Part shown: piece by piece, positions 1,383 through 9,435 of the stretch
Numbering within the stretch: position 1 is the stretch's first letter
Layout: each line of letters opens with the position of its first letter
Source: an uncultured Alistipes sp.
GTDB lineage: Bacteria; Bacteroidota; Bacteroidia; Bacteroidales; Rikenellaceae
Length of the DNA: 13,148 bases
Assembly (NCBI GenBank): GCA_947174575.1
Contig: CAMWJM010000007.1
Coordinates: 1 to 13,148 of the forward strand
Direction: 5' to 3'
Notes under the pieces: model-generated
The model's input: the letters and a program-made list of their open reading frames with translations, nothing else
Databases searched by the model: none
Told to the model about the DNA's origin: nothing
Made by a program: the position numbers and the translations under genes

Positions 1383-1467
1383 GCCCAGGTGGCGGAATAG
1401 GTAGACGCGCACGTTTCAGGTGCGTGTGCCGCAAGGCGTGCAGGTTCGATTCCTGTCCTGGGCACCA
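1383..1467 (+). tRNA. tRNA-Leu (anticodon CAG)
   Basis: The 85-nt sequence folds as a class II tRNA. The 7-bp acceptor stem is GCCCAGG (1383-1389) with CCTGGGC (1457-1463), followed by A and an encoded CCA (1465-1467). The anticodon arm is CACGT / GCGTG around the loop TTCAGGT, giving anticodon CAG, which reads CUG leucine codons. A long variable arm (GTGCCGCAAGGCGT region) and the T loop TTCGATT are present. It has its own promoter and terminator, so it is a single-gene unit. Confidence 0.95.
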
Positions 1468-1850: not shown

Positions 1851-1881
1851 TGTGATCGAAAGCTAAAATTTTCTATCTTTG
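1851..1881 (+). promoter_or_regulatory. Promoter of the propeller-caspase-barrel operon
   Basis: TATCTTTG at 1874-1881 is a perfect -7 element. TGTG at 1851-1854 is a one-mismatch -33 element with a 19-bp spacer. The bases just before the -7 (ATTTTC) nearly match those at the minus-strand promoter 9428-9435 (AATTTC), so the two promoters appear related. Transcription would begin around 1886-1889, leaving an untranslated leader of about 310 nt. Confidence 0.65.
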
Positions 1882-1885
1882 TCAG

Positions 1886-2139
1886 GTCGACGGGAGAAAT
1901 CCCAGGACAGACATATTTCGATGAAAGTGTTTAGCTTTTGTCCTTGAGCGAAAATGTGGCAGTTTTCAGTAAACAGGGATACGCTACACTCATTGCTTGT
2001 ATTGGTATGCGATATGATTATCCATGCGATACAAGTGTGGGGTATTGTTTATTTGTTTACGGGTAGCCACAACCTTCGCTCAGATAAACTAATCAACTCC
2101 ACACTTTCTTTTTGTTCAATCCCCATCCATCCGGAGTTG
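1886..2139 (+). ncRNA. Candidate structured 5' leader RNA, left copy
   Basis: A long leader ahead of the plus-strand operon that matches, block by block, the leader of the convergent operon (9189-9420, minus). Order of elements: GTCGACGG (1886-1893); a small GGGA-GAAA-TCCC hairpin (1892-1903); a 60-nt block nearly identical to the other leader (1916-1975), which can itself form GAAAAT/GTTTTC around GTGGCA; a copy-specific hairpin CTTGTATTG (1996-2004) with CGATACAAG (2027-2035); ACGGGTAG (2059-2066); AAACTAATC (2086-2094); and a hairpin CAACTCC (2094-2100) with GGAGTTG (2133-2139) around a 32-nt loop that begins ACACTTT and includes CCCCAT. TGTTTAC (2054-2060) could also pair with GTAAACA at the end of the 60-nt block. 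The pairings are my inference from sequence. I do not match this to a named RNA family. A regulatory DNA element is the alternative. Confidence 0.55.
1916..1975 (+). repeat. Inverted repeat flanking the accessory module, left copy
   Basis: This 60-bp block is present in inverted orientation at 9343-9402 with 58 of 60 identical bases; 1931-1975 is identical over 45 bp. The only differences are at 1922 (T versus C on the read strand) and 1930 (T versus G). Both copies lie about 35-50 bp downstream of a promoter -7 element. The block contains ATGTGGCAG, so a short frame starting MWQFSVN opens in both copies, but the two frames diverge immediately after the block, so a conserved peptide is unlikely. 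Confidence 0.95.
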
Positions 2140-2197: not shown

Positions 2198-4252
2198 ATG
2201 AAAAAAATCGTTTTTGTACTTCTGTGCGCCATAAGCGCACGCATGGCCTATGCACAATCCGAAAAATCGGGATATGCGTATCCGCAGAAAAACCGGCCCG
2301 CTTTATTGGACACCTATTCTTTCACGGGCTACTATGCCCACGGCCCCTACGCCTGCAATCTGCGACAGGCAACCCTATGCAAGGCTTCGGGAGACATCGA
2401 AGCATTGAGGATCAATCCTGCGGGGTCTTCTTTCGCCGTTCTTACCGCAACACGAAACCGCAAACCGCAGATATCGATCTACGATCTATGGAAAACCAAC
2501 GTCCTGCTGCACACCATAGCCCCCAAATACGCCCCGGCAGCCATCTGCTATGCTCCGGACGCAAAGAGCTTTGCCGTGGCCGACACCGACCGAAAAATCC
2601 ATCTGTACGACACCCGCACTTACGCAGAAAAGGCCGTATTCGGCATTAATTCACCGACAGACAAAATCGCCATAAGCCCGAACAACTACTTTCTGGCAGC
2701 AGAATGCGATCATGCACTGCTGGTCTATAACCTCCAGAATCGAGAACTGCGCAAAGAAATATCCCTGCCCGAACGTATCAACGGCTTCACATTCTCGGCC
2801 GACAACAGCCTGCTGGCCATACTTACCGCAGAAGGATCGCTGACGCTCTACGACACGCGTTCGTTTCTCCCTTTGCAGCAATTCGGCGGATTGGGAAGCG
2901 CCCGCAGCTGCGATATCCATGCAGACGGCAAATACATAGCCGTAGCAACGGACGATAATCGTATCGTACTGCTGAACAGGATGAACGGCAGCGATCGCCG
3001 ATACATCGAAAACAAAGAGGGCGGCATACAGGATGTCCGATTCGTAAAAGACGGAAAGGGGCAGAGTTTTCTGCTTTATAACACGGCCCGTTCAATCGTC
3101 TATGCGCTCCTCGGGGACCTTCGGCCCAACTATACGCAATTGTTGGCCGACGAACTGGACGAAAAGATGAACGTCTGGATGAAACAGATGGACGGCGAAT
3201 CGCTGGATGACTACCATGCACGCGTCAACGACCGCACCCGAGCGCAACAAATGGCGATCTTCGAGCAGGAAATCGCCACACGCATGGCCGACGACCTGCT
3301 GGCCATCTCCGACGTATCGCTCGGAAACTTCAACCCCGAGACGAACACGCTCGCGATCGAGTTCGATACCATGCCGTCGATCTATCTGAACATCCCGCCC
3401 GACAAAGTCGCCGGATTCTCCGACACGGACGACCTCGAATTCCGCAATGCGGTGTACGGCGTGACGGCTAACGACGATTTCGAGCTGGTATACGTCGATG
3501 TCTACAACAAGCGCACGGGCGAAATCTATACATTCGACAATCGCGAACGCCGTTCGCTGGAATATTTGCAGTCGGACGATCGCTTCGTGCCGCTCGAACT
3601 GGTACAGCTCTCGAATCTGGACGAAATAAAACTCCGGGAGATACGCAACGATATCGTTTCGCAAGCCCGCAAGACGAACCGCATCTCGGATCATACGCAG
3701 GTTGCTGTCAATACGGCAGTAATCTCGGACGCGAATGCGAACGGCGAGAAAATCCACAACTACCGAATAGGATTTTCGTATAATGTGGAGAAAGATTTCT
3801 CCGCCCGCGAGGATTTTGCACCGGGACGCTATAACACCGAGCAATCAGCTGCGGCCCTGTCGATGATCGCAATCATCAAAACCGCATTCGAGAACGAATT
3901 CAGCCAATATGTCAAAGCCGGCAAAAAAGTGCGGATCGTAATTACAGGCATGGCAGACCGGCTGCCTATAAACGGACGCATCGCCTACAACGGTGCCTAC
4001 GGGACTTTTGTCAACGAACCCGTTTACGGAGAGCAACTCTATGCGCTGACCGTCACGCCGGCGACCGGCATTACCAAGAACGATCAATTGGCATTTATCC
4101 GGGCTGCCGGAGTAAAAAGTTGCATTGCCCGAGATATCCGCACGCTGGAGGAGATGGATGCCGAATACGAATACCACATTAAAGTAACGGACAAGGCGGG
4201 CGGTGAATATCGCCGCATATCCGTCGACTTCATCTTTGTAGATGCTTTCTGA
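2198..4252 (+). CDS. Secreted beta-propeller (WD40-like) protein with OmpA-like C-terminus
   Basis: The 684-residue product begins with a signal peptide (hydrophobic residues 4-18, cleavage likely after AYAQ, residue 20), so it should be exported. Residues about 65-300 look like a degenerate WD40/YVTN-type propeller: repeats of the form INPAGSSFAVLT...ISIYDL, YAPDAKSFAVAD...IHLYDT, ISPNNYFLAAE...LLVYNL and FSADNSLLAIL...LTLYDT. Residues about 318-450 resemble residues 400-540 of the downstream caspase protein (ESLDDYHARV...TR matches ETIQEYRRRV...TR). Residues about 520-684 may be an OmpA-like fold (VRIVITGMAD, then EYRRISVDF), which could bind peptidoglycan; this part is a weak inference. 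The ATG at 2198 is chosen over an in-frame ATG at 2141 because only it puts the signal peptide at the N-terminus. It ends 1 bp before the caspase gene, so translational coupling is likely. The function is unknown; a scaffold or regulator for the protease is plausible. Confidence 0.8.
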   Translation: MKKIVFVLLCAISARMAYAQSEKSGYAYPQKNRPALLDTYSFTGYYAHGPYACNLRQATLCKASGDIEALRINPAGSSFAVLTATRNRKPQISIYDLWKTNVLLHTIAPKYAPAAICYAPDAKSFAVADTDRKIHLYDTRTYAEKAVFGINSPTDKIAISPNNYFLAAECDHALLVYNLQNRELRKEISLPERINGFTFSADNSLLAILTAEGSLTLYDTRSFLPLQQFGGLGSARSCDIHADGKYIAVATDDNRIVLLNRMNGSDRRYIENKEGGIQDVRFVKDGKGQSFLLYNTARSIVYALLGDLRPNYTQLLADELDEKMNVWMKQMDGESLDDYHARVNDRTRAQQMAIFEQEIATRMADDLLAISDVSLGNFNPETNTLAIEFDTMPSIYLNIPPDKVAGFSDTDDLEFRNAVYGVTANDDFELVYVDVYNKRTGEIYTFDNRERRSLEYLQSDDRFVPLELVQLSNLDEIKLREIRNDIVSQARKTNRISDHTQVAVNTAVISDANANGEKIHNYRIGFSYNVEKDFSAREDFAPGRYNTEQSAAALSMIAIIKTAFENEFSQYVKAGKKVRIVITGMADRLPINGRIAYNGAYGTFVNEPVYGEQLYALTVTPATGITKNDQLAFIRAAGVKSCIARDIRTLEEMDAEYEYHIKVTDKAGGEYRRISVDFIFVDAF

Positions 4253-4253
4253 A

Positions 4254-6779
4254 ATGAAACTATTGCGACTTTCGGTTGCCGCTGCACTCTGCTGTACCCT
4301 CTTCGGGGGTACAGCGGCAGCGCAATCCCTTGAACATGCCCAAGCGGCCTACCGTACGTTCCTGCAACTGAACGAAGAGAAAGGTGATCCGGAAACCATG
4401 TACGAAGCCCTGTATCGGAGCTACGAAGCATATGCCGACCTGCTGCGCACCTCGCCGGAAACGCCCATGGCTGCAGAAACCAAAACCGCCTTACGCAATA
4501 TACGGCCCTACCTGCAAAACGGCGCTATCTACTATTCGCAAAAAGGCGACAAACAACAGGCCGTCCGTTTGGCCCGGGCCTATGTCGATATCCCGTTAAT
4601 GGAGGCTTTCCGGGGCGAACACTTCATCAAGGACGAATACTATCCGACAATGGTCTATTTTGCGGCGGCAGAAAGCTACAATGCCCGCGACTATGCCGCA
4701 GCAGTACGTTATTTCCGGGAATATCTGCAATCGGGAGCTCCGGACAAGCGACAGGAAGTATATACCTACATGTCGAAGTCGTGCGTGAACATCAAGAATT
4801 ATTCACTGGCCAAACAGATGCTCGACGAAGCGACCACGGCCTATCCTTCCGACTTCAACCTGCTGTCGATGGCAATCAACGTTTCGATAGACAGCGAAGA
4901 CAACGCCGCTCTGCAAAAATATGTGAGCCGAGCCTTGCTGTTCAAGCCGAACGATCCGACCTTGCTCAACATTCAGGGCAAACTCCACGAAGACACCGGC
5001 GACTATCAGCAGGCGATCTCGATCTATACGCAGTTGCGGGACGCCCGGCCCCACAGTCTCGAAATAGCGAAACACCTCGCCCTGAACTATTTCAACATGG
5101 GCGTACTCTACAGCAACAAAAGTTTGAGCGTCAACGATCCGCAAACCGCATCGCACTACGATACGCAGTCGAAAGAATTTTTCGAGACGGCCATTCCGAC
5201 CATCAAGGATATTCTGACGACCGATCCCAACTCCACGAAGTTTCTCGAAGCCTTGGCGGTATCCTATCAATATACCGGACGAACCGACGAGCTGGGCGAA
5301 ACCAACCGCAAACTCGCTTCGCTCGGCGGACGCCAGATCACGGCCGCATCGAACCCGTCGCTGCTCTCCTCCTCTGCCGCACAACCCGCTCGGCCCGGAG
5401 AGCCGACGCCGGGACCTGCAGCCATGAACTCTGGTCCGCTTTATTCGCAGTACGCCAAGCAATATGTAGAAGCACGACTGAAATCGTGGCAGGCGAAAGA
5501 CCCATACGAAACGATTCAGGAATACCGCCGACGCGTCTCCGAACAAACCCGGGATGCCAAAGTTCGGGAACTGCTGGCCGAAGCCGAGGCGAACTACATC
5601 GATCTCTATGCAAAAGACGTGCGTCTGACAAGCATGAAGCTGCGTCCCTACGATGCCGAAAACGAAGTATTCCTTGCCGAATCGGACTACGGCGAACTGA
5701 TCGTGCCGGTTCCGCGCGCGAACAACGAAGCCCGCGTATTTGAAAGCACATGGAACGGCATGCAGTTCAAAAACCCGAAGTTCCGTATCGACAACGACCG
5801 ACTGAAACTGGCGGGGCTGACTTTCGTGACACCGCTGGGCAAAGCCTATCGATACGACGTAAAAAGCACGCGGGACTATACGGAGACCACCGTCGACGTA
5901 CGCTTCGACGCCATCGACTACGGTCAATTGGCGAATGCCGACCCCTCGGTCGAAAACAAATCGCAGATTCGGAAAAACACGGTGATGGTCGGCGCTTCGG
6001 ACGTAGACGAAAACATTCCGCAAACCAACGCAATCAGCGAAAAGACCTTTGCGGTCATCATCGCCAACGAAAAATACGAAATGGTCGCAGGAGTACCGAT
6101 GGCACTCAACGACGGCAAGGTATTCGGTCTCTACTGCCAACAGACGCTGGGGCTGCCGCAAGAAAATATCCGGCTCTACGAAAATGCCACCTACGGATCG
6201 ATGCTACGGGCGGTGCGGGATATTCAGAACATCTCGGATGCCTATGCCGGAGACATTCAAGTGATTTTCTACTACGCCGGCCATGGCATCCCGAATGAAA
6301 CGACCAAGGATGCGTTCCTGCTGCCGGTCGATGCCGACGGCCTGCAAACCGAAATCTGTTACCCGTTGAGCAGACTCTATTCGGAACTCGGCCGGCTGAA
6401 CGCCCGTTCGGTCTTCGTATTTCTGGACGCCTGCTTCAGCGGAGCCAAGCGCGACGGCGGCATGCTGGCATCGGCCCGCGGCGTAGCGCTGAAAGCCAAA
6501 AAAGAGGCGCCGCAGGGCAATATGGTGATCTTCTCGGCGGCCTCGGACGATGAAACGGCATTCCCCTACGAGGCGAAAGGACACGGTCTATTTACCTACT
6601 ACCTGCTGAAAAAACTTCAGGAAACCGCCGGGAATGCTACACTGGCCGAATTGAGCGACTATGTGATCGAAAAGGTCAAACAACAATCCATCGTCATCAA
6701 CCGCAAGGCGCAGACACCGGTCATCAACCCGGCATCCGCCATGCAGGAAAACTGGCGGGAACTACGTATGAAACCCTAA
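4254..6779 (+). CDS. Secreted TPR and caspase-like (peptidase C14) protease
   Basis: An 841-residue protein with a signal peptide (cleavage likely after TAAAQ, residue 24). Residues about 25-355 are helical TPR-like repeats (for example DYAAAVRYFREYLQ, NYSLAKQMLDEA, DYQQAISIYTQL). A Ser/Pro/Ala-rich linker (about 366-392) leads to a region shared with the upstream propeller protein (about 400-540). The C-terminal caspase-like domain starts with KTFAVIIANEKY (597-608) and has both catalytic residues: His677 in YYAGHG and Cys727 in DACFSG. Asp725 two residues before the Cys resembles metacaspases, which cut after Arg or Lys, so basic P1 specificity is inferred. The ATG at 4254 gives the cleanest signal peptide; an in-frame ATG at 4242, overlapping the upstream gene, is the alternative. 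A 9-bp hairpin lies in the signal-peptide codons (4291-4315). Export of a caspase-like protease suggests an envelope role rather than a cytosolic death effector. Confidence 0.88.
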   Translation: MKLLRLSVAAALCCTLFGGTAAAQSLEHAQAAYRTFLQLNEEKGDPETMYEALYRSYEAYADLLRTSPETPMAAETKTALRNIRPYLQNGAIYYSQKGDKQQAVRLARAYVDIPLMEAFRGEHFIKDEYYPTMVYFAAAESYNARDYAAAVRYFREYLQSGAPDKRQEVYTYMSKSCVNIKNYSLAKQMLDEATTAYPSDFNLLSMAINVSIDSEDNAALQKYVSRALLFKPNDPTLLNIQGKLHEDTGDYQQAISIYTQLRDARPHSLEIAKHLALNYFNMGVLYSNKSLSVNDPQTASHYDTQSKEFFETAIPTIKDILTTDPNSTKFLEALAVSYQYTGRTDELGETNRKLASLGGRQITAASNPSLLSSSAAQPARPGEPTPGPAAMNSGPLYSQYAKQYVEARLKSWQAKDPYETIQEYRRRVSEQTRDAKVRELLAEAEANYIDLYAKDVRLTSMKLRPYDAENEVFLAESDYGELIVPVPRANNEARVFESTWNGMQFKNPKFRIDNDRLKLAGLTFVTPLGKAYRYDVKSTRDYTETTVDVRFDAIDYGQLANADPSVENKSQIRKNTVMVGASDVDENIPQTNAISEKTFAVIIANEKYEMVAGVPMALNDGKVFGLYCQQTLGLPQENIRLYENATYGSMLRAVRDIQNISDAYAGDIQVIFYYAGHGIPNETTKDAFLLPVDADGLQTEICYPLSRLYSELGRLNARSVFVFLDACFSGAKRDGGMLASARGVALKAKKEAPQGNMVIFSAASDDETAFPYEAKGHGLFTYYLLKKLQETAGNATLAELSDYVIEKVKQQSIVINRKAQTPVINPASAMQENWRELRMKP

Positions 6780-6791
6780 CAATAAAACAAC

Positions 6792-7511
6792 ATGAAAAAA
6801 TCTCTTTTCACAATTCTTTTCTTGGGACTGGGGCTTGCAGCTACGGCCCAAAATGTCGTGAACGGCACGGTAACCGACAAACAAGGCAACCCGATACCCG
6901 GAGCACGGGTAGCGACGACCCAAGGTACGGAATCGGCCCTGACCGAGTTGGACGGGACATTCCGGCTCGAAACGCAGCGTCCCGCAAAACGGATCGCGGT
7001 GGATTACGTCGGATTGCGATCCAAGCAAGTCCGCACGCGCAACGATGATATGACGATCGTCCTCTCCCCTTCCAACTGGTTTTTCGACCACTATGAAAGC
7101 GAGGTGAATATCGGATACGGCGGCGGTGGAAAAACGGAGACCGACGGCATGACATTCGGCAGAATTTTCGCCGAAACGGTTCAAGGCCTGCGCATCAACA
7201 AATACGCCTATACAGGTATTGGTATCGGATTCCAATATTCCTATGGTTTGGATGTTGCTTTTTTACCGATTTTCGTCGATCTCAAAGGATATTATCCGCT
7301 GAATCAAAAAATCGCTCCCTACATCGCCGTCGATCTCGGCTATGCACTCGGGTTGACCAGAGAGGATAGCGACATGAGCGGTTTTTATACGACTGTCGGT
7401 GCCGGTTGCAATTATCTCAAATGGAATTTCAGTCTGGGATACCAGTATCAATCTTTCATATGGGGTGAAGCCATGAATTCATTCTATGTCAAAGTGGGTA
7501 TGAAGTTTTGA
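6792..7511 (+). CDS. Outer-membrane beta-barrel protein with carboxypeptidase-regulatory-like domain
   Basis: A 239-residue protein with a signal peptide (cleavage likely after ATAQ, residue 20). Residues about 23-95 look like the CarboxypepD_reg-like / CNA-B-type beta-sandwich common at the N-terminus of Bacteroidota outer-membrane proteins (NGTVTDKQGNPIPGARV, then ELDGTFRL and a VDYVGLRSK-like segment). Residues about 100-239 show alternating hydrophobic strands rich in Gly and Tyr and end in a terminal Phe (VKVGMKF), the usual signal for Bam-dependent outer-membrane insertion. The size suggests a small barrel of about eight strands and is far too short for a SusC/TonB receptor. It starts 12 bp after the caspase stop, so it is in the same operon, and a strong terminator follows. 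It could anchor the system at the outer membrane; no substrate can be inferred. Confidence 0.8.
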   Translation: MKKSLFTILFLGLGLAATAQNVVNGTVTDKQGNPIPGARVATTQGTESALTELDGTFRLETQRPAKRIAVDYVGLRSKQVRTRNDDMTIVLSPSNWFFDHYESEVNIGYGGGGKTETDGMTFGRIFAETVQGLRINKYAYTGIGIGFQYSYGLDVAFLPIFVDLKGYYPLNQKIAPYIAVDLGYALGLTREDSDMSGFYTTVGAGCNYLKWNFSLGYQYQSFIWGEAMNSFYVKVGMKF

Positions 7512-7594: not shown

Positions 7595-8464
7595 CTACTT
7601 TCTGACGGTGATCGTCGTTTTCCGGACCACCATCCCTTTGTCCCGCATCCGGCTGCGGGTCAGCCACTGCTGAAAGCCGGCAAAATCCAGCTGCCGCGGC
7701 GCCCCGTCGTTGACCTGCGCATCGTTCGCCTTGACGAACGCATTCGTCGAAAAAACGACGTAAATATCGTTTTGCTCGACCGCCTGCCGGCAGGTCAGCG
7801 TATATTCGTCGACCGCCTGTTTGGGGACATCCCCCGGATGCTCCGAAGAGAAAAACACATAGTCCCGATCATTCCGAACCCCGACCTGCCCCGTGGCATT
7901 GGACATATAGGGAAGCAAGCAATAGGCCTGCTGCTCGTCGTCGACCAAGTAGACGACCAAATAGCCGTCGGCCGGAGTACGGAAATAAAGAAACATATCA
8001 TCGCCGTCCCGGAAATTCGAGTCCTCGTTACGGAGATCCGTGCCATTCTTAAGAATCCGGGCCTCGATATCGATCGACGAGGCGACGATCTCGCGGGCCC
8101 GCCCCGCGACCGACGCACGGATAGCCAGCATTCCCCGCTCGTGGATAATTTCCACGACCGGTTCGCGCGTGTCCTCGATCCATTCGCCTTTCACTTCGCT
8201 GCCGCCGGACGACAAGAATGACAGGTCCGACCGCCCGTCGGTATTTTCGACATGCGTGCTGTTGACTTGGGAAACGATCGTTCCGAATGCAGTCGCAAGG
8301 GCCTGAAGCCGGGCACGCTCGATTGCCGTGCGTCTGGCTATTTCGAGCGTAGCATCCTCCGGAACATGATAGAGATATTCCCCGCTGATGGTCTGCACCT
8401 TCTGGGCATACGACCAATGCGGGGAATAAATCAGCATACATACCAACAAGATATGCCGCATCAT
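7595..8464 (-). CDS. Secreted DUF4384-domain protein
   Basis: A 289-residue protein with a signal peptide (cleavage likely after WSYA, residue 20). Residues about 25-135 resemble the LPP20/FlgT-N type of alpha-beta domain (SGEYLYHVPEDATLEIARR, then an Ala-rich helix AIERARLQALATAFG). Residues about 150-245 match the DUF4384 pattern: a domain opening with FRDGDDMFLYFRTPADGYLVVYLVD, then YCLLPY and ending with DIYVVFSTNAF. From memory of the family, DUF4384 domains often occur beside or fused to caspase-like peptidases and kinases, which fits the neighbourhood. It lies 11 bp after the LPP20-like gene and is co-transcribed with it. Two adjacent ATGs (8464 and 8461) could start it; the choice does not affect the signal peptide. 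Its molecular activity is unknown. Confidence 0.8.
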   Translation of the reverse strand: MMRHILLVCMLIYSPHWSYAQKVQTISGEYLYHVPEDATLEIARRTAIERARLQALATAFGTIVSQVNSTHVENTDGRSDLSFLSSGGSEVKGEWIEDTREPVVEIIHERGMLAIRASVAGRAREIVASSIDIEARILKNGTDLRNEDSNFRDGDDMFLYFRTPADGYLVVYLVDDEQQAYCLLPYMSNATGQVGVRNDRDYVFFSSEHPGDVPKQAVDEYTLTCRQAVEQNDIYVVFSTNAFVKANDAQVNDGAPRQLDFAGFQQWLTRSRMRDKGMVVRKTTITVRK

Positions 8465-8475
8465 ATGTTTTCGGT

Positions 8476-9147
8476 TTAGAAGCCCAACGCCTTATCGAGC
8501 TGTTCATGCAGGTCGTCGCCTTTCTGTTCCAGCTGTTGATGTACGATCTCTTTGGCAGCATTCATAGCCATCGCCGAATTGTAAGCAATGACCACACGCA
8601 CTTCCTTGTTCTTGTTCTTCAAAACCCGGTAACACTCCACGACAGGAATCACGCGACCGATCTTTTGCGAAATGAGATTCTTGCTGGCCATGACCGTTCG
8701 AGTAATCGAAACAGCCTGCTCAGCGGACAGCTGTTCATTGGCTACCGTCTGATCGACCAATGCCGTGATCTCAGTTTGAATTTGACCGGCCAGATTCTGC
8801 TTGGCCAACTCCAGCGCCTGCATCTTTGCGGCATCGTAATTGGCACCCGGAGACATGGCCTCGCCCATCAAATACTTGGGAAAAGCATTCTCGTCGTATT
8901 CATACTGCATATTGTAAGCCCTGTCGAATTGTTTTTCGAGCGGCAAATTTCCCGGAGCGACAATCCAACCCTCCCGAATCGCGTCTTTTGCAGCTTTTCG
9001 AGCGGCCTTGCCGGCCTTGGCATTAAGCTCGCTTTTAGAGAGTTTCGCGATCTCTTTCCGTTCCTTGACGATGTCTTTGGCGTCTTGGCACCAAGCATTC
9101 GCCGAAATCGACAGCAGCATTGCTGCGAGAATCGAAATTTTTTTCAT
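8476..9147 (-). CDS. Secreted LPP20-like protein
   Basis: A 223-residue protein starting MKKISILAAMLLS, a signal peptide with likely cleavage after SANA (residue 18). The nearby cysteine at residue 20 is preceded by Trp, so no proper lipobox is present and it is probably not a lipoprotein. Residues about 28-60 are a charged, Lys/Ala-rich helix. The segment around 104-190 (AAKMQALELAKQNLAGQI, then ISQKIGRVIPVVECYRVL and a VRVVIAY strand) has the pattern of the LPP20 / FlgP-like family. The start at 9147 is chosen because it begins the signal peptide; an in-frame ATG at 9189 falls in the leader hairpin. It is the first gene of the minus-strand unit, preceded by the shared leader. LPP20 proteins occur in envelope assemblies; its role here is unknown. 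Confidence 0.75.
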   Translation of the reverse strand: MKKISILAAMLLSISANAWCQDAKDIVKERKEIAKLSKSELNAKAGKAARKAAKDAIREGWIVAPGNLPLEKQFDRAYNMQYEYDENAFPKYLMGEAMSPGANYDAAKMQALELAKQNLAGQIQTEITALVDQTVANEQLSAEQAVSITRTVMASKNLISQKIGRVIPVVECYRVLKNKNKEVRVVIAYNSAMAMNAAKEIVHQQLEQKGDDLHEQLDKALGF

Positions 9148-9188: not shown

Positions 9189-9420
9189 CGGCTCCGAATG
9201 GGGAAATAAAATACCAGAAAAGTGTGGAGCCGATTTAGTTTTTCTCCAAGAAGAATTGCGGCGAATCGTCGATATACAATCGTACTACCCGTTTCCGCGC
9301 GGAAACTCCTGCGGACCGAAAGACGAGTGTGCATCCGTTCCTTGTTTACTGAAAACTGCCACATTTTCGCTCAAGGACAAAAGCTAACCACTTTCGTCGA
9401 AAATATCATACCGTCGACAC
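9189..9420 (-). ncRNA. Candidate structured 5' leader RNA, right copy
   Basis: Leader of the minus-strand operon, homologous to 1886-2139. Read on the minus strand: a 5' hairpin TACCG/CGGTA (9420-9424 with 9409-9413) overlapping GTCGACGG (9411-9418); the 60-nt block (9402 to 9343); a copy-specific perfect palindrome GTTTCCGCGCGGAAAC (9291-9306); ACGGGTAG (9292 to 9285); AAACTAAATC (9241 to 9232); and a hairpin CGGCTCC (9232 to 9226) with GGAGCCG (9195 to 9189) around a 30-nt loop that begins ACACTTT and contains CCCCAT. Compared with the left copy, two stem pairs change from A-T to G-C on both sides, keeping the pairing. The start codon follows 41 nt later. The structure is inferred by eye. 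Confidence 0.55.
9343..9402 (-). repeat. Inverted repeat flanking the accessory module, right copy
   Basis: This is the reverse complement of 1916-1975 with 58 of 60 identical bases, and 9343-9387 is a perfect 45-bp match. It lies inside the leader of the minus-strand operon. The match cannot be chance at this length. It implies duplication, conserved regulatory function, or recombination between the two ends of the module. Confidence 0.95.
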
Positions 9421-9427
9421 GGTAATG

Positions 9428-9435
9428 CAAAGATA
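9428..9435 (-). promoter_or_regulatory. Promoter -7 element of the LPP20-DUF4384 operon
   Basis: The minus strand reads TATCTTTG at 9435 to 9428, a perfect Bacteroidota -7 element. No TTTG lies at the usual 19-21 bp upstream, so the -33 element is weak or absent and the promoter may depend on an activator. Transcription would start near 9420-9423, giving a leader of about 275 nt before the ATG at 9147. Confidence 0.6.

Follow-up and report, generated by a model that had tools for sequence, protein, structure and literature searches.

Organization of the locus

The window, by which we mean the whole 13,148-nt stretch of DNA analyzed here, contains two convergent operons, each preceded by a copy of a long leader element (Table 1). 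The open reading frame that begins the forward operon has an additional, earlier ATG at position 2141.

Table 1. Coordinates of the leader elements, their pairing strands, and neighboring genes in the window
Feature	Position	Strand	Remarks
tRNA gene	1383–1464	+	upstream of leader copy 1; Rfam RF00005, 51.7 bits
Promoter −7 box TATCTTTG (TAnnTTTG), leader copy 1	1874–1881	+	just upstream of leader
Leader RNA copy 1, intact	1886–2139; R1 match 1911–2109	+	179 bits, E 2.9e-44, own genome
Segment A (GAAAGTGT)	1923–1930	+	can pair with 3′ half of D (2101–2108); A–D p 0.01
Helix U, 5′ strand (TGAGCGAA)	1945–1952	+	partner 2075–2082; covariation
Helix K, 5′ strand TGTGG	1955–1959	+	partner CCACA 2067–2071; covariation
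Helix S–T, 5′ strand GTAAACA	1969–1975	+	partner TGTTTAC 2054–2060; covariation
P4 / B–C hairpin, copy-specific tip	1987–2035	+	copy 1 fold; B–C covaries in non-Alistipes set
Segment C (AAGTGTGGGGT)	2033–2043	+	alternative partner for B and for D
Segment D (CAACTCC-ACACTTTC)	2094–2108	+	partner C (terminator-like), or A plus E
U-rich tract TTTCTTTTTG after C–D stem	2105–2114	+	T count across 184 copies
Segment E (GGAGTTG)	2133–2139	+	P7 partner of 2094–2100; P7 p 0.0033
First gene of forward operon, β-propeller-like	2198–4252	+	signal-peptide-like start MKKIVFVLL...; presumed start
TPR-caspase (Peptidase_C14) protein	4242–6779	+	in one of the two convergent operons
DUF4384 protein	7598–8464	−	in one of the two convergent operons
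First gene of reverse operon, LPP20-type (label of the original prediction)	8479–9147	−	no Pfam match
Leader RNA copy 2, 5′ half conserved, 3′ half diverged	9189–9423; R1 match 9217–9408	−	99 bits, without C–D stem
Promoter −7 box TATCTTTG, leader copy 2	9428–9435	−	just upstream of leader

The original prediction had described the same ordered elements in both leaders, which holds for the 5′ half and for an element at the 3′ end and fails for ACGGGTAG and for the diverged 3′ half. The near-identical block that it had pointed out is indeed present: positions 1916–1979 (+) and 9339–9402 (−) share 95% identity over 64 nt (E = 3.6e-23 for this pair in a BLAST search of the own genome). The 5′ hairpin is recognizable by eye in both copies, and the common 3′ element consists of CTCCACAC and its GGAG partner (2094–2100/2133–2139 in copy 1 and 9232–9226/9195–9189 in copy 2). 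On our reading, ACGGGTAG is a different element in each leader, forming the 5′ strand of hairpin P6 in copy 1 and lying ahead of the P5 region in copy 2. The near-identity is confined to the 5′ half. A comparison of 9217–9408 (−) with 1911–2109 (+) gives 95% identity in the 5′ halves and divergence in the 3′ halves, a pattern such as local gene conversion of the 5′ half would leave.

A multicopy RNA family

The leader at 1886–2139 is one copy of an unnamed RNA family of ∼220 nt. A covariance model trained on 31 copies, both copies of the window among them (R1), spans these two at full length with 179 and 99 bits, respectively. R1 matches 139 of 151 genomes of Alistipes, the genus of the window, in a scan that scored at most 15 candidates per genome, so that copy numbers are lower bounds. 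In the order, it matches 47 of 198 genomes spanning 38 of 151 genera. A second model (R2) was built from 37 copies of a non-Alistipes sequence type, two of which stem from Fibrobacter MAGs and a few from MAGs labeled Alistipes or Rikenella. In the phylum, with seven candidates scored per genome, R2 matches occur in 38 of 296 genomes and 22 of 140 genera and reach 127 bits. The genome of the window itself is counted in the tallies of both models.

R2 also matches all 10 named genomes, which were picked since each already had a known locus and which include two Fibrobacter MAGs. Up to 15 copies per genome were found: 15 in a Fibrobacter succinogenes MAG, 14 in Alistipes sp. An66, 10 in Bacteroides acidifaciens DSM 15896, five each in a Fibrobacter sp. 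MAG and A. muris, four each in B. neonati, Bacteroides sp. An322, an A. senegalensis MAG, and a Pullibacteroides MAG, and two in Dysgonomonas ZJ279. The leader RNA is present in isolate genomes, namely B. acidifaciens DSM 15896, B. neonati MS4, A. muris, and Dysgonomonas sp. ZJ279. In the window's own genome (an assembly of 1.44 Mb, 72% complete), BLAST returned six matches, some of them pieces of one copy; the other copies there match copy 1 at 73–95% identity and mostly in part. R1 finds five distinct places there and R2 one further on C15, giving at least six copies.

Altogether, 186 copies were collected, of which 184 are distinct; this set excludes reverse-strand matches, copies cut by contig ends, matches below ∼27 bits, and repeats of one place. 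Many of the non-Alistipes copies were obtained with a sequence pattern (GAAATCTGGWAAATTT, AAGRA, RCTCR) that prescribes part of strand K, P2, and B, so the conservation of these parts in pattern-derived copies is to some extent a result of selection. The pattern does not touch U, D, C, or the covarying column of B. The pattern scan yielded at least 116 stretches; two Nitrosomonas loci among them (L130 and L178) had no model match at E ≤ 1 and were rejected. An exact 44-nt search returned no match in a genome contig collection from which records near the window's genome may be absent.

Three leaders (L108, L143, and L007) hold two copies within ∼450 nt. A copy of 178 bits lies at 7105–7307 of a viral contig (L241) beside ORFs resembling tyrosine integrases, and two phage records, both unverified (MT838511.1 and MT836914.1), contain similar stretches according to BLAST. 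A Dysgonomonas contig (L318) ends in two copies of equal model score at mirrored positions, 124–353 (−) and 6765–6994 (+), which possibly form a long inverted repeat.

Position between promoter box and start codon

From 5′ to 3′, the element comprises the TAnnTTTG box, a variable 5′ hairpin, ACATA, segment A, and strands U, K, and S, followed by the B–C hairpin with its copy-specific tip, strands T, K, and U, segment D, the U tract, segment E, and the start codon. The TAnnTTTG box is found within 80 nt upstream of 124 of the 127 Alistipes-type copies (8.2 expected from shuffles) and of 31 of 55 other copies (2.1 expected). Downstream, an ATG ORF of at least 40 amino acids begins 20–130 nt past the element in 168 of the 184 copies (16 are without one), and in 111 of these 168 it starts at 44–66 nt. 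Among the 141 copies with enough flanking sequence, an ORF of at least 100 amino acids starts at 44–66 nt in 76, compared with one on the divergent side, and at 20–130 nt in 112, compared with 13. In two genomes of the phylum (L242 and L247), the RNA lies ∼190 and ∼540 nt before ORFs that by eye resemble SusC-type TonB receptors, with further leader sequence between RNA and ORF.

A promoter box upstream and a same-strand start codon at a fixed range mark the element as a cis-acting 5′ leader. Together with its covarying helices and the lack of an Rfam match, this lends good support to the original prediction of a cis-regulatory RNA, and to a place outside the named families. In our judgment, the sequence evidence settles that the family is structured and that its place is in 5′ leaders.

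Covariation of the rod and of a strand with two partners

Covariation was assessed with a test modeled on R-scape (not R-scape itself), in which substitutions are replayed at random on the tree. In further homologues, this phylogeny-aware test supports the fold. The 127 Alistipes-type copies contain nine column pairs with E ≤ 0.05, all at least 94% canonical and all within U, K, and S–T. The alignment of 37 non-Alistipes copies (A5) likewise yields nine pairs at E ≤ 0.1, all at least 86% canonical. Here, column 105 of strand C covaries with column 174 of D (E = 0, 97% paired) and also with column 99 of B (E = 0.1, 89% paired). Strand C has two covarying partners, B and D, which is the key result of this analysis.

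Tests of whole helices in the Alistipes set gave p = 0.0033, the floor of 300 simulations, for the 5′ hairpin, U, K, S–T, P2, and P7. A–D (p = 0.01), J and P5 (both p = 0.013), and C–D (p = 0.02) are supported as well. In the same set, P6 (p = 0.07), a single B–C pair (p = 0.15), P8 (p = 0.24), and P3 (p = 0.62) were unsupported, as was the A–A′ hairpin in the one register tried (p = 0.86). A–D occupies columns 249–256 and P7 columns 241–248; C–D, at columns 245–252, overlaps both and therefore excludes both.

The 47 copies of a further alignment (A7) come from a pair of Fibrobacter MAGs, two Bacteroides genomes, and other genomes of the phylum. Of these, 45 lie outside the R2 training set, L285 and L300 being the same elements as L238 and L235. 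Since R2 selected the A7 copies and they were fitted to the U, K, and B–C structure of this model, A7 leans toward those pairings; 93.0% of U and 98.5% of K are paired, with double changes in seven of seven pairs in each. When the strands are slid as a control, paired cells fall from 96.5% to 32–40%. C–D, toward which the alignment does not lean, is 96.0% paired, with double changes in three of seven pairs. B–C contains a conserved wobble, U–G in 39 of 44 cells of A7, and the C position of this wobble forms a G–C pair with D in 32 of 44 cells. This would let D displace B.

Two competing folds and a putative attenuator

Competing pairings are conserved in evolution at two strands: B–C against C–D at strand C, and A–D and P7 against C–D at strand D. 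One fold would be a long rod, in which strands U, K, and S of the 5′ half pair with strands of the 3′ half and B pairs with C; D would be divided, its 5′ half pairing with segment E downstream and its 3′ half being free to pair with A. The other would be a self-contained 3′ hairpin, in which paired C and D enclose P5 and P6 and the U tract follows directly. Our first structure, a junction with P3–P6 kissing loops used for R1, was revised because U, K, and S–T covary as parts of one rod, with P3 and P6 as possible parts of the other fold.

The folds can be followed in ViennaRNA predictions. Full-length copy 1 is predicted to form the rod with P7, segment A lying in a local A–A′ hairpin; a prefix that stops at the U tract forms A–D instead, and only in this prefix is A–D seen. 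The 3′ half of copy 1 alone folds into C–D, P5, and P6 at −26.7 kcal/mol and ends before the U tract. Across the family, the isolated 3′ half forms C–D in 180 of 184 copies, a figure that, like the z-score of this stem, is biased by the picking of C–D as the best helix. At least five T are present in the 8 nt after C–D in 174 of 184 copies, whereas random positions of the leader gave 26 of 184. The succession typical of an intrinsic terminator, a stem and then a U tract, is thus found across nearly the whole set. For the full element, the median z-score is −6.9 in a sample of 40 copies.

With the C–D hairpin directly before a U tract, transcription should stop ahead of the gene, and the competitor of C–D would act as an antiterminator. 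Where folding of the 5′ half on itself (A–A′, P2, and P3) is favored, the gene would be off; otherwise, the rod would form and the gene would be read. The anatomy is that of an attenuator or riboswitch-like RNA with a putative terminator. We consider it probable that the leader works as a bistable attenuator, as one member of a new family of 5′ leader RNAs that act in cis and occur in multiple copies in Bacteroidota and Fibrobacterota; this putative mechanism is the reading best supported by the sequences. That transcription terminates, in which direction control works, and that there is a signal at all, be it a metabolite, a protein, or an RNA, we infer. Because the rod is the predicted minimum-energy fold in isolation, formation of the terminator would have to be brought about by a regulator or by folding kinetics. 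Further points against the attenuator are the lack of C–D in copy 2, the helices unsupported in the Alistipes set, the pairing of A with A′ and not with D in the predicted full-length fold, and the copies that lie far from a gene (e.g. L247) or are without an ATG ORF in the range given above.

In copy 2, a best-helix search of the 3′ half found no C–D stem. This stem has 11 bp in copy 1 (z = −4.2, with the selection bias given above), whereas the best helix of copy 2 has 6 bp (z = −0.15). By eye, copy 2 retains A–D, P7, and the K pairing (TGTGG 9363–9359 with CCGCA 9261–9257) and may be a decaying or rewired copy. The proposal that a shared signal switches both operons of the window is not supported; the case for joint switching is weak because copy 2 is without the alternative, terminator-like C–D stem.

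Genes downstream of the leader

The suggestion that the leaders serve one envelope module does not cover the range of genes that follow them. By sequence, the 168 downstream proteins form 87 clusters, and they include secreted lipoproteins as well as restriction-type and other non-envelope proteins; no uniting pathway was seen among them, and gene context therefore names no ligand. In a Pfam search of 141 of these proteins, the best 25 of 100 families include BspA leucine-rich repeats (10 proteins), BACON (6), zinc ribbon (4), CsgG (3), HSDR_N (2), and LytTR (2). By a crude rule, 96 of 153 downstream proteins start with a signal-peptide-like sequence. Another 34 proteins from Fibrobacter, Bacteroides, and other genomes contribute DNA methylases, a DrmD-like helicase, a TonB receptor domain, and four Fibrobacter major-domain proteins.

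Defense as a theme that would explain the family was rejected, the 11 PADLOC models that match the 141 proteins at E ≤ 1e-8 having one or two members each. Among 34 of 38 later proteins, family counts give six defense matches (four DNA methylases, the DrmD-like helicase, and PDC-S29), which, like the earlier ones, are raw counts without a background set and not an enrichment. Four of the six appear from the sequences to come from one Fibrobacter MAG, and the PDC-S29 gene was seemingly already in the first set of 141. Fibrobacter copies precede restriction-modification or DISARM-like genes at L285, L286 (assigned by eye), L287, L289, and L295 of the F. succinogenes MAG and at L301 of the Fibrobacter sp. 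MAG, a tally that likewise has no background set.

Alternative explanations

The leader might instead control translation or mRNA stability, its alternative folds exposing or hiding the region before the start codon without any termination of transcription. The covariation of P7, whose strand E lies between U tract and start codon, would suit such a role, as would the rod as predicted full-length fold. Translation control alone leaves the U tract right after C–D unexplained, and we regard this explanation as conceivable but unlikely.

Quite unlikely, too, is a small RNA gene, whose promoter and U-tract terminator would yield a free, trans-acting RNA of ∼230 nt, the downstream gene being read by leakage or being incidental. 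An own promoter motif, a terminator-like 3′ end, several copies per genome, and a rod reminiscent of 6S RNA are what such a gene would have. A start codon on the same strand within a narrow range (76 of 141 copies, against one on the divergent side) is not, and neither is the absence of an Rfam family match on the element. Moreover, segment E, past the U tract, covaries with D in P7, and the conserved RNA hence reaches beyond the terminator.

We give little credence to a promoter-bearing mobile DNA element, be it a MITE or a recombination site made of a folded single strand. The many copies, a palindromic shape that gives weak reverse-strand model matches, the location of some copies near contig ends, and the similar stretches in the phage records would fit it. 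However, the element is constrained in its orientation and in its distances to promoter box and start codon; the conserved U–G wobble of B–C favors an RNA of this strand, and the other copies of the own genome match copy 1 at just 73–95%, mostly in part. Least credible is conserved sequence without switching, with the alternative pairings as a by-product of repeated GTGTGG/CCACAC motifs: A, C, and D do share complementary motifs that give some double complementarity for free, but B–C and C–D both covary in one alignment against a phylogeny-aware null, and A–D and P7 tile D exactly, with C–D occupying its middle.

Implications of a probable bistable leader

To our knowledge, few structured leader RNAs have been described in Bacteroidota, although this phylum is dominant in the gut. 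The present family is large, supported by covariation, found in isolate genomes, and without an Rfam 15 match in the loci tested, and its compensatory pairs make the model of a bistable switch directly testable. Tentatively, the copies can be pictured as one ancient RNA device of Bacteroidota and Fibrobacterota, through which a single cellular signal would gate horizontally gained accessory genes by way of dispersed copies. The genes gated might then be, equally tentatively, those for surface lipoproteins, BspA and BACON proteins, TonB receptors, restriction-modification, and other defense functions. If this picture is true, the flexible genome would possess a regulon run by RNA. Identification of the signal would give access to a regulon with surface proteins and anti-phage genes among its members.

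Comparison with known RNAs

The original prediction recognized no named RNA family in the element, and Rfam 15 gave no match on the element of the window (E ≤ 5), nor on the element in 31 other loci (12 from the order, 10 from the phylum, and nine further; E ≤ 1). Cobalamin riboswitches feature long-range loop pairing and occur in many copies in Bacteroidales. The leader RNA resembles them in both respects and differs in having no Rfam match in either of these searches. 6S RNA is a long rod-like RNA, a shape that the leader RNA shares; unlike 6S and 6S-Flavo, the leader RNA has no match in these Rfam searches, is linked in cis to start codons, and is present in many copies per genome. 6S-Flavo (RF01685) is among the RNAs listed in PMC2864571.

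Flavo-1 (RF01705) is, similar to the leader RNA, a multicopy structured RNA motif of Bacteroidetes without an assigned function, but its model has 76 positions. It is present in eight of 16 genomes searched and absent from the four Alistipes genomes among them, and in shared genomes Flavo-1 and R2 never coincide among the places listed (seven candidates scored per genome for R2). In Flavobacterium psychrophilum, several 5′ regions coincide with Flavo-1 matches in sense or antisense, and many matches lie outside them, according to PMC9723704. The main texts of PMC11109978 and PMC8632094 contain none of six Bacteroidetes names. The published titles and abstract openings searched contained no description of the leader RNA; it may be an unnamed candidate in supplementary lists. 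For B. thetaiotaomicron, a transcript map has been published (PMC7366714).

With attenuators and riboswitches of the terminator/antiterminator kind, the leader RNA shares the position in a 5′ leader, the promoter box upstream, stems that exclude each other, a terminator-like stem with a U tract, and tandem copies in some leaders. It differs from them in that no ligand is known and that up to 15 copies per genome precede unrelated genes. Unlike in those systems, the competitor of the terminator-like stem is a rod over most of the leader, joined by a pseudoknot to a downstream segment.
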